In this document: positions 24,861-28,308 of the stretch, piece by piece
Numbering within the stretch: position 1 is the stretch's first letter
Layout of the letters: each line of letters begins with the position of its first letter
IMG/VR virus record: IMGVR_UViG_3300005527_000220
Coordinates: 1-28,911 of that record
From: a virus
Strand: one strand, 5' to 3'
DNA: 28,911 nt
Translations under genes and position numbers: made by a program
The notes under the pieces: model-generated
Seen by the model: the letters and a program-made list of their open reading frames with translations, nothing else
Databases searched by the model: none
Told to the model about the DNA's origin: nothing

Positions 24861-25580
24861 ATGCCTTTACCTAAAATTGAACATCCAATTCATGAAGTGT
24901 ATTTGAAATCCTTAGATAAGAAAGTTCGATACAGACCATTTCTTGTCAAAGAAGAAAAACTTCTACTCATGGCAAAAGAATCAGAGGATCTACAAGACAT
25001 TCTAAAAACAATCAAGCAGATCATTTCAAATTGCTGCTTAGATGATATCGATGTTGAGTCTCTTCCAATCTTCGATGTTGAGATGTTTTTCATACATCTA
25101 AGAATCAATTCTGTTGGTGAAACCTCTGATCTAATGTATACATGCGCACATGTTGTCAATGAAGAACCATGCAACCATGTTGTAGAATTTTCTCTTGATC
25201 TGAAGAACATCAAGTATAGATTCAGTGAACAGCATAATAAGATTATTGCATTGAATAAGGATATTGGTGTTTGTATGAGATATCCTTCATTGACTTTACC
25301 TCAATCTTTACTTGATGATAAGTTTCAAGATGGTGGATATGAAATTATATCAGAGTACCTAGATTACATCTATGATGAGAATCAAACTTATAAAAAAGAA
25401 GATATTAGCAAAGAAGAACTAGCTGCATTTTTCGATGATTTATCTCTTGAGCATGTAAAAGCAATAAAACAATTTTTTGTCAGCGCACCATCGGTTGTAC
25501 TAGAACAAGACATAACATGCCCAAAGTGTAATAATAATCATAATATGGTTTTGGAGGGCGTTCTAAATTTTTTCGAATGA
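24861..25580 (+). CDS. 26: Baseplate hub / tail assembly protein gp26
   Basis: A 239-residue member of the T4 gp26 family (T4 208 aa). The start MPLPKIEHPIHEVYLKSLDK with RYRPFLVKEEKLLLMAKES, and FDVEMFFIHLRINSVGE in the middle, are diagnostic. Four cysteines in two pairs (C95/C104 and C220/C223, the latter in TCPKCNNNH) suggest a zinc ribbon. GGAG at 24851-24854 with 6-base spacing is a good ribosome site. The gene ends LEGVLNFFE, and the codons for this end contain GGAGGG, A AAT TTT and T TTT TTC just before the stop. The next gene starts in the -1 frame with an ATGA overlap. A small coupled gene and then a tape-measure-like gene follow, as in tail assembly chaperone loci. Confidence 0.9.
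   Translation: MPLPKIEHPIHEVYLKSLDKKVRYRPFLVKEEKLLLMAKESEDLQDILKTIKQIISNCCLDDIDVESLPIFDVEMFFIHLRINSVGETSDLMYTCAHVVNEEPCNHVVEFSLDLKNIKYRFSEQHNKIIALNKDIGVCMRYPSLTLPQSLLDDKFQDGGYEIISEYLDYIYDENQTYKKEDISKEELAAFFDDLSLEHVKAIKQFFVSAPSVVLEQDITCPKCNNNHNMVLEGVLNFFE
25553..25574 (+). promoter_or_regulatory. Candidate programmed -1 frameshift site at the gp26 end
   Basis: In the gp26 frame the codons CTA AAT TTT TTC contain two overlapping X XXY YYZ heptamers: A AAT TTT (25565-25571) and T TTT TTC (25568-25574). GGAGGG (25553-25558) precedes them by 6 and 9 bases, close to the 10-base spacing of the E. coli dnaX stimulator. A -1 slip skips the gp26 stop and reads CGA ATG ACG CTT, fusing gp26 to the next protein. 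I saw no convincing downstream hairpin. Confidence 0.5.
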
Positions 25581-25771
25581 CGCTTGGTTATGATAGTCTG
25601 AAAAATTACTACGCAACGAATTTTACATTGATGCAACACCACAAATATTCGTTGTCAGAATTAGATAATCTAATTCCCTGGGAAAAACAGATTTATGTGA
25701 AACTCTTAGAAAATCATGTGAAGGAACAAAACGAAAAACTCAAATTGGTACAGGCTCAAAGAAGTAGATGA
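25577..25771 (+). CDS. Small gp26-coupled protein, probable tail assembly chaperone partner
   Basis: A 64-residue helical protein (MTLGYDSLKNYYATNFTLMQ, then HHKYSLSELDNLIPWEKQIY) ending in a charged tail. The IPWEKxxYVxLL pattern recurs in small proteins between gp26 and the tape-measure-like gene of T4-like phages. Its start overlaps the gp26 stop (ATGA) and its stop overlaps the next start (ATGA). The only strong ribosome-site-like sequence, GGAGGG, ends 18 bases upstream, too far for normal initiation. Expression is therefore probably by termination-reinitiation or by the -1 frameshift described above, giving a gp26 fusion. It is not T4 gp51 (249 aa) by sequence or length. Chaperone function is inference from the layout. 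Confidence 0.75.
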   Translation: MTLGYDSLKNYYATNFTLMQHHKYSLSELDNLIPWEKQIYVKLLENHVKEQNEKLKLVQAQRSR

Positions 25772-28308
25772 AAAGTAATATCTCAGACAAAGACATAAAA
25801 AAACTTCGAGAACAATTACGAGAACTCGAAGGAAAGACTTCTCAGAAGAGTGCGAATCTTCTAGAGGAAGCAATTCGTTCTGAGACTGAGGGGCTTGGTC
25901 TTGTTTCAACTCTAAGAAAACAAAGAGAGATTCAAGAGCAGTGGCAAATTGCAACTGAAAAGACCACAGGATTTTTGAGTGGATTTCTAGAAGGCTTTGT
26001 TGGGGAAAAGGCAGGTAGAGCACTTTCTCTCAAATATGCAAGAGCAAGCGACGAAGAAGTGAAAAAGGCTCGTGACTTTTTCGATAAGTTCAAGAAATCT
26101 GGCGAGAAACAAGAAAAAGTTTCTGCTAAAAAGAATGAAAGAGTTTCAAAAGATTTCAAATCTATAAAGAAGATTGTAGTAGGCATACAAAAAGATATTC
26201 AAACGATTCGAAAGGCTATGACTGGAAAGTCTTCACCAGATGTAAAATCCGCTCAGTATTATTTCGATGAGAGAATGGCTGGTGGTGGAAGATATAAAGA
26301 TCGCGAAACAAATAAAATCGTAAGCAAAGATGTTGCACTCAAAGGCAGAACTGAGAATCTAACAAAGGCTATTATGGCTGATGAAGATCCAATGATTCGT
26401 CTTGCAGATACAGTTGATTCTATTTGGAAGAGTCTTGGACCATCAACCAAAGCACAGAAAACTGTTCATGAACGACTTGATGAACTGGAGGATGATATCG
26501 AAGCTGCTGACGATAGTAGTTGGCTTGATCTCTTGGGTGGAGGCGGTGGTCGTCGCGGAAGAAGAGGTCGTCGTGGTGGTCGTCGTGGTGGCATGGGTCG
26601 TCGTGGTGGCATGGGTCGTGGTGGCGGTATGCGTGGTCTTGGAATGGGTGGACTACTTGCTGGTGCTGCAGGTGGTTACTTGGCATACTCTGCTGTTGAT
26701 TCATTTAGAGATCCGAATCTAGAACAGTATAATCCAGATTTTCTAAAAGAACAGGCGATCATGGCTCGTGAGGGTGGAGATGCTGGTGCTACATCAGCAA
26801 TTCAAAATCAGATTACAGCACAAAAGACAGATATAAAACTTCAAGCAGGAGCCAGTGCAGCTGGTGTTGCTGGAGCAGTTGGTGGCGCCGTTGCAGTCAA
26901 GAAGATAGCACAAACTGCTGTTGTGAAAGCAACAAAATCAAAAGTCTGGGATCTTTTTGTGAAGTTTGTTGCAAAAAAATCACCATCTCTATTTGCTAAA
27001 ATTGGAGCACGACTTGCCCTTGCTGGTGGTCTTGCAACTGTTCCAATTTTAGGTTGGGTGAGCGCAGCTATAACTGTTGTTGGTAGTGTTTGGCTGGCAT
27101 GGGATCTCTATCAATTATGGAATGAATTTTCAGCATTGAGTGATGCAGAGAAAGAGCTCTATGATGATAAAGTTATGAAGCAAGCAGAACAACAAAGTTC
27201 AGCGACAGCAGCAAAAACCCCAACAACATCAACACCTGCAGCAGGTCAAGTTGGGGCTGCTCCGAAGGCACCAGCAACACCATCATTATTTGAAAGTGCA
27301 TCAATCAATGTTGGATCTGCGGTTTCAGGTGCTATTGCAAGTGCTAAAAGTTTCTTTGGTGGCGGACCATCAGGAAATGATCTGGCAAAGTATGTTAGAT
27401 TGAAAGACAGCAGTGTAAATTTGAATGGGTTAAATCCTCAACTCAAAGAAAGATTTGCAGCACTTGCAAAAGAATATAATGAAAAGACAGGACAAAAGAT
27501 TCAAGTAAACTCAGGATATCGTAGTTCAGAAGAACAAGCAGCTCTATATGCTAAAATTGGTCCACCTAATGCCGCACCTCCAGGAAGAAGTCGTCATGAG
27601 AGTGGATTAGCAATTGACATCAATTCAACTGATGCAAATAAAGCAATTGAACTTGGATTGATGGCAAAGTATGGATTTGTTCGTCCAGTTCGTGGAGAGA
27701 CGTGGCATGTTGAACCGATTGAGTCTGCAAAACGTGGACCAACACCAGATAATCCATACAAACCAGGTGCTCCTGTTGCAGTGGCGAATAATGGCAAAGT
27801 TGCTTCACCAGAAACTGGATCGAAACCACCAGCAAGTGTGGCACCACAGAGTGCAGCACCACAGAGTGCGGCACAAAGTTCTGGTTCTTCAATGGTTGCA
27901 TCTTCTGCAGAACCAACACAATCAATTTCTACACAGAGTGCGGCACAAAGTTCTAGTTCTTCAATGGTTGCATCTTCTGCAGAACCAACACAATCAATTT
28001 CTACGGAAACAAGCAGTTCATATGCAAACAGCAGCGCGCCTGCATCAACAATTACACCAATTCAAAGTGATCTTGGTGCTTCTGTGCAGCAACAAAGCAG
28101 TCAATTGGCATCAAATCAAATGACTGCTCAAGCACCTCAGGCGCCAGTTGTTGTGAATAACACTACACAGACATCTGCGAATCCATCGGCTGCACCAAAA
28201 CAAAATATACCAAAAGCGAACGCAAGAACTGCAGATAGTTCATTCACTCGAGCATTGGCTAGAGACTTTTCTCACCCAACAGCATTTACAACTGTCACGC
28301 TGATATAA
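25768..28308 (+). CDS. Tape-measure-like hub protein with M15 (VanY-type) peptidase domain
   Basis: An 846-residue protein following the gp26/small-ORF pair, where a tape measure or gp29 counterpart is expected. Residues 1-250 are charged helices. Residues 256-293 form an Arg/Gly patch (GGGGGRRGRRGRRGGRRGG) running into an apolar Gly/Ala stretch (290-310). A strong membrane-type segment spans 413-450 (LALAGGLATVPILGWVSAAI). Residues 540-655 are an M15/VanY metallopeptidase: NSGYRSSEEQAALY (581-594), SRHESGLAID (608-617, with zinc ligands H610 and D617) and GETWHVEP (643-650, with catalytic E644 and ligand H647). The C-terminal 200 residues are Ser/Gln/Ala-rich, contain a 72-base tandem duplication, and end ALARDFSHPTAFTTVTLI. 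The peptidase would cut peptidoglycan cross-links or stems during entry. The tape-measure role is inferred; the peptidase motifs are complete. Confidence 0.8.
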   Translation: MKSNISDKDIKKLREQLRELEGKTSQKSANLLEEAIRSETEGLGLVSTLRKQREIQEQWQIATEKTTGFLSGFLEGFVGEKAGRALSLKYARASDEEVKKARDFFDKFKKSGEKQEKVSAKKNERVSKDFKSIKKIVVGIQKDIQTIRKAMTGKSSPDVKSAQYYFDERMAGGGRYKDRETNKIVSKDVALKGRTENLTKAIMADEDPMIRLADTVDSIWKSLGPSTKAQKTVHERLDELEDDIEAADDSSWLDLLGGGGGRRGRRGRRGGRRGGMGRRGGMGRGGGMRGLGMGGLLAGAAGGYLAYSAVDSFRDPNLEQYNPDFLKEQAIMAREGGDAGATSAIQNQITAQKTDIKLQAGASAAGVAGAVGGAVAVKKIAQTAVVKATKSKVWDLFVKFVAKKSPSLFAKIGARLALAGGLATVPILGWVSAAITVVGSVWLAWDLYQLWNEFSALSDAEKELYDDKVMKQAEQQSSATAAKTPTTSTPAAGQVGAAPKAPATPSLFESASINVGSAVSGAIASAKSFFGGGPSGNDLAKYVRLKDSSVNLNGLNPQLKERFAALAKEYNEKTGQKIQVNSGYRSSEEQAALYAKIGPPNAAPPGRSRHESGLAIDINSTDANKAIELGLMAKYGFVRPVRGETWHVEPIESAKRGPTPDNPYKPGAPVAVANNGKVASPETGSKPPASVAPQSAAPQSAAQSSGSSMVASSAEPTQSISTQSAAQSSSSSMVASSAEPTQSISTETSSSYANSSAPASTITPIQSDLGASVQQQSSQLASNQMTAQAPQAPVVVNNTTQTSANPSAAPKQNIPKANARTADSSFTRALARDFSHPTAFTTVTLI
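26569..26616 (+). repeat. 18-base tandem repeat encoding the Arg/Gly patch
   Basis: Two perfect copies of cgtcgtggtggcatgggt lie at 26581-26598 and 26599-26616. They are preceded by a partial copy and followed by a degenerate copy (cgtggtggcggtatgcgt). They encode RRGGMG units, in frame, within the tape-measure-like gene. The block is markedly more G-rich than its surroundings. Confidence 0.85.
27860..28003 (+). repeat. 72-base tandem duplication in the tape-measure-like gene
   Basis: Copies at 27860-27931 and 27932-28003 differ at one base (G at 27883, A at 27955), changing Gly to Ser. Each encodes 24 residues including SMVASSAEPTQSIST. A shorter 15-base near-repeat (gcaccacagagtgca, then gcaccacagagtgcg) lies just upstream. 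The near identity points to a recent duplication in a disordered linker. Confidence 0.9.

Follow-up and report, generated by a model that had tools for sequence, protein, structure and literature searches.

Organization of the gp26 junction

Is the small open reading frame (ORF) behind the gp26-like gene of a T4-like phage a gene in its own right, or is it the C-terminal part of a longer protein reached by a change of reading frame? The question is raised by the virus record IMGVR_UViG_3300005527_000220, whose full 28,911 bases are referred to here as the window. The record carries T4-like tail genes. Its minus strand encodes the tail tube cap, the baseplate wedge and further tail proteins, and its plus strand encodes the head closure protein, the DNA end protector, the tail tube, gp26, gp51 and an 846-aa protein. 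Related IMG/VR records suggest that the phage is of freshwater origin.

The gp26-like gene (24861–25580, plus strand, as are all features below; PF12322 T4_baseplate, PHROG 150) encodes 239 aa and ends in the codons TTG GAG GGC GTT CTA AAT TTT TTC GAA TGA. These contain two overlapping in-phase -1 heptamers, A AAT TTT (25565–25571) and T TTT TTC (25568–25574), with GGAGGG (25553–25558) lying 6 and 9 nt upstream of them. The 0-frame TGA stop (25578–25580) stands one codon, GAA, past T TTT TTC, an offset shared by 63 of 73 non-redundant relatives. The ORF after gp26 (25577–25771, 64 aa) lies in the -1 frame, and its ATG (25577–25579) overlaps the stop. After a slip, the -1-frame extension (25574–25771; gp51-like, PHROG 634) begins with CGA (Arg) and closes with a final TGA at 25769–25771, which gives a conceptual fusion of 238 + R + 64 = 303 aa plus stop. 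An earlier note, made from the letters of the window, had described both heptamers, the spacing of GGAGGG, the -1 frame and a fusion of about 303 residues, and each of these holds. Judging from the comparison of related sequences, we consider it very probable that one gene has two products here, with a frameshift at T TTT TTC making a short (TAC-N) and a long (TAC-NC) tail assembly chaperone.

Conservation of the probable slip site

Relatives of both proteins were gathered from IMG/VR and from annotated phages; 147 loci hold both parts, and they yield a non-redundant set of 73 junctions at ≤90% DNA identity. At all 147 loci the second ORF follows in the -1 frame relative to gp26. Near its end, the 0-frame gene has an in-phase X XXY YYZ heptamer at one and the same position in all 73 junctions (TTTTTTC 64 times, TTTTTTT eight times, TTTTTTA once). 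Two outcomes that the earlier note had regarded as speaking against recoding are absent, since the heptamer is broken by synonymous changes in 0/73 junctions and the second gene lies in another frame at 0/147 loci. Among five plus-strand genes of the window, any X XXY YYZ heptamer occurs in 6 of 1652 codon phases, and the T TTT TTC of gp26 is the sole in-phase TTTTTT[CT].

The earlier note had put forward both heptamers as candidates, and only one of them stands. A AAT TTT is present in just 28 of the 73 relatives and was rejected, so the slip site is taken to be T TTT TTC. Codon choice at this site departs from usage elsewhere in the same genes. The codon before the two phenylalanines (AAT, AGT, GAT, TCT, GGT or GCT) ends in T in 73/73 junctions, where codon usage would predict 46.8, and TTT encodes the first Phe in every junction, compared with a TTT usage of 73% elsewhere. 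The joint codon-usage probability of the slip-site bases is ~10^-25 (n=73), a value that treats the sequences as independent and does not fully remove their relatedness; it is still 10^-11 in 34 sequences at ≤65% identity, again with independence assumed despite kinship. The alignment thus points to synonymous constraint on the slip site that goes far beyond amino-acid needs, and the direction of this effect is not in doubt.

One subgroup, which includes Pelagibacter phage Mosig, shows a variant of the gene end (L001, L095, L099, L134, L139 and L148): the gp26 frame extends 21 nt beyond the usual stop and overlaps the extension.

The -1-frame extension and its start codon

The position occupied by ATG in the window holds CTA, ATA, TTA, GTA and other codons in relatives, with ATG in 9/73, so that the ATGA overlap of the window is a minority state. 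The residue encoded there varies among hydrophobics (L, I, M, V). Since this position is mostly CTA, ATA or TTA, the window ATG is probably not a needed start codon. In 60 of the 73 relatives the second ORF has no ATG, GTG or TTG in its first codons, and in 35 it has none before codon 17. A Shine-Dalgarno (SD) sequence at canonical spacing precedes the second ORF in none of the 73, in line with the earlier observation that the window's ORF lacks a well-spaced ribosome site ahead of its ATG.

Between the slip site and the ATG at +54, the first that is common among the relatives, lie the first 18 codons of the extension. Read in the -1 frame they have a pN/pS of 0.28, while the two other frames give 1.00 and 1.46; the extension codons before +54 are therefore under purifying selection. 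Internal initiation at the common ATG was rejected, because an SD at canonical spacing precedes it in 0/61 cases and the codons upstream of it are under selection. Taken together, the relatives suggest that the second ORF depends on frameshifting, having no start of its own in most of them, and that the ATG of the window is an exception.

In several annotated cyanophages, the gp51 stretch bears no annotated gene or a late-placed start, as in Synechococcus phage S-BM3 (L163, 3004–3190).

Candidate stimulatory elements

GGAGGG lies 9 nt before T TTT TTC in 36/73 relatives, the remainder carrying weaker forms or none, and about one third have no strong SD-like element. The Glu codon of the Leu/Val-Glu-Gly motif is GAG in 39 of the 47 sequences with Glu, compared with a background usage of 24%, and the Val and Leu codons preceding it likewise favour a final G. 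A scan with the 3' end of 16S rRNA gives a single peak, exactly at GGAGGG, with -7.2 kcal/mol against -4.5 kcal/mol in synonymous shuffles. GGAGGG is thus probably a Shine-Dalgarno-like stimulator of the slip. Such an upstream element is optional in the family of -1 frameshift sites, and here it is present and synonymously constrained in most, although not all, relatives. The synonymous comparison that the earlier note had proposed for the heptamer and GGAGGG accordingly finds both constrained beyond their amino acids.

A downstream stem-loop or pseudoknot is common at -1 frameshift sites and is not required. Folding of the downstream RNA gave a mean z of -0.55, equal to that of control regions, in a model that does not cover pseudoknots, and a downstream hairpin was rejected as stimulator. 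We give an even chance to the broader reading that a large freshwater and marine clade uses an upstream-only -1 cassette, in which an SD-like stimulator at a fixed 9-nt spacing and T TTT TTC, with synonymous sites under selection and no downstream RNA structure, would drive T4-like chaperone frameshifting.

Homology to T4 gp26 and gp51

The gp26 protein matches Pfam PF12322 with an E-value of 1.1e-57. With hhalign, gp26 of T4 and Acinetobacter phages aligns with the N part at 99.8% probability. The whole length of their gp51 matches the conceptual fusion, in 247 columns and at 99.0% probability; this alignment runs through the junction and pairs the extension with the C-terminal end of T4 gp51. 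Since T4 gp51 matches the whole fusion and T4 gp26 its N part, the two products are read as short and long tail assembly chaperones, and the record of Acinetobacter phage Berthold labels gp26 and gp51 both as tape measure protein assembly chaperones. The homology supports gp26 and its extension as a putative TAC-N/TAC-NC pair; the earlier proposal of a recoded chaperone pair gains from this homology and agrees with published T4-like chaperones. The AF2 model of gp26 (pLDDT 87) has no match in the PDB at E≤0.001, with the HK97 chaperone 2OB9 at rank 19 (prob 0.28), and no sequence relatives of gp26 were found in the PDB.

In the window and most relatives, a long protein follows the chaperone genes. 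In the window this is the 846-aa protein (25768–28308), for which a role as tape measure is plausible from its position and from weak tape-measure PHROG matches in just two relatives, Vibrio D481 and DLP6. The same protein contains a VanY/M15 peptidase domain at residues ~555–625, as if a tape measure bore a cell-wall hydrolase.

Distribution and variants among distant phages

T TTT TTC followed by a -1-frame extension is also found in Prochlorococcus P-SSM5, Synechococcus S-BM3, S-H9-2 and Bellamy, Pelagibacter Mosig, Stenotrophomonas DLP6 and Bhz51, Vibrio D481 and Aeromonas G2. At the slip position, Rhizobium RL2RES carries T TTT TTG (GAT TTT TTG). Ackermannviridae-type phages deviate from the T TTT TTC pattern, and T4 and Acinetobacter Berthold do without the frameshift, each having two separate genes.

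In Salmonella phage Se_AO1 (Kuttervirus; L159, 3789–3990), gp26 ends in GAG ATT TTC ATT TAA, without T TTT TTC, and is accompanied by an unannotated gp51-like -1-frame reading that has no early start codon, LIFEIDLLSYFVMCDELKAHGYSIFEISESMPWHL. Phages of this kind may slip at another sequence. In Vibrio phages 1.255.O (L154, 3714) and K444 (L155, 3723), gp26 ends in CTT TTT CGC TAA TG or CTT TTT GCG TAA TG; here a shortened T run is combined with an overlapping ATG, which may represent a state midway between frameshifting and initiation at a start of its own.

Proposed mechanism and alternative explanations

From these comparisons we infer a slip of limited efficiency. Most ribosomes would translate gp26 and terminate at the TGA, producing the 239-aa TAC-N, while a minority would shift backwards by a single base on T TTT TTC, probably aided by pairing of 16S rRNA with GGAGGG. 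The slipped ribosomes would continue in the -1 frame to 25771 and produce the 303-aa TAC-NC, which would consist of the common N part and a C-terminal domain. If the roles correspond to those in lambda G/GT, TAC-N would cover the tape measure and TAC-NC would bring in the tail tube subunits.

The overlap of ATG and stop invites a different account, namely that re-initiation by translational coupling at ATGA yields a free 64-aa gp51 and that the T run is incidental. The window does have this overlap, ATG recurs at the position in the nine relatives mentioned above, and some distant phages show TGATG or TAATG at the junction. This account is nevertheless highly unlikely, because 64 of the 73 relatives carry CTA, ATA, TTA or another non-ATG codon there, none has a canonically spaced SD, the slip site is conserved whatever codon stands at the ATG position, and Met is just one of several hydrophobic residues at that site. 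A milder version combines both routes in the window's clade: since the in-frame ATG overlaps the stop, frameshifting could make the long form while re-initiation at a gained ATG could also yield some free C-terminal protein. Besides the overlap itself, it is favoured by the fact that an NTG codon at this position is always ATG and never GTG, TTG or CTG. We regard it as rather unlikely, given that few independent lineages are involved, that ATG arises simply from the GAA TGA ending and that a free C-terminal product is not known to have any role.

Two further explanations concern the T run and the motif around it. Transcriptional slippage, in which mRNAs of altered length would fuse the frames, could draw on the homopolymer of six T, yet this is short beside the runs of about nine A or T known from bacterial transcriptional slippage (PMC5009743). 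The run also ends in C in 64/73 relatives, and the phase of the heptamer with the codons together with the spaced SD-like element fits ribosomal slippage, which leaves the transcriptional route extremely improbable. The remaining explanation was raised as a caveat in the earlier note: protein constraint on LEGxxxFF could generate the bases with no recoding at all. At the amino-acid level the caveat is borne out, as the L/V-E-G and F-F residues are conserved; it fails to explain the bases, since the invariable T before FF, the invariable TTT and the preference for GAG depart strongly from the usage of the same genes, and we assign it next to no probability. Ribosomal frameshifting at T TTT TTC is thus the reading we retain.

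Implications for annotation

The "baseplate hub assembly catalyst gp51" named in numerous cyanophage, pelagiphage and freshwater records is probably not encoded by a gene of its own and instead forms the C-terminal part of a protein made by frameshifting, which would explain why gp51 is often unannotated or has a doubtful start. The comparison also links the two-gene arrangement of T4 to a frameshift-kept arrangement in its relatives. In addition, some of these natural slip sites carry the SD-like stimulator and others lack it, and the set can be used to measure what determines chaperone ratios.

Comparison with known systems

In arrangement, the locus can be likened to lambda G/GT and P2 E/E', where a single start yields a short and a long form through a -1 shift close to the 3' end of a gene ahead of the tape measure, for which the window has the 846-aa protein as a candidate. 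The slip sequences differ, being G GGA AAG in lambda, T TTT TTG in P2 and T TTT TTC in the window. The dnaX cassette has an SD-like stimulator about 10 nt upstream of its heptamer, which GGAGGG resembles. Unlike dnaX, the window has no downstream hairpin that we could find, its heptamer is T TTT TTC where dnaX has A AAA AAG, and the gene is unrelated.

Within the T4-like phages, frameshifting is reportedly conserved in several groups, with separate genes 26 and 51 in T4. T4 itself has gene 26 and a full-length gene 51 where the window has a probable frameshift. According to PRFect (PMC10885494), citing Vladimirov et al. 2022, frameshifting is replaced in some T4-like phages by a short gene together with a longer, fused one, and PMC12846349, citing the same work, says that poly-T slip sites are known from the TAC-N genes of such phages. 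The chaperone locus of Vandenendeviridae and Andersonviridae (PMC12846349) likewise has a poly-T -1 site, GTTTTT, in a myovirus chaperone gene, supported by a similar argument; the window comes from another phage family and has another slip sequence.

The closest counterparts are the T4-like chaperones described by Vladimirov, Gautam and Davidson (2022, Virology 566:9-15), which likewise involve the gp26/gp51 families, the short and long scheme and a poly-T slip at the end of the short gene. Because T4-like chaperone frameshifting appears there, the frameshift proposed for the window is already known in kind. We found no mention of an SD-like element 9 nt upstream in the passages of PMC10885494 and PMC12846349 that treat T4-like chaperone frameshifting, and the SD-like stimulator may be a new detail of this system.
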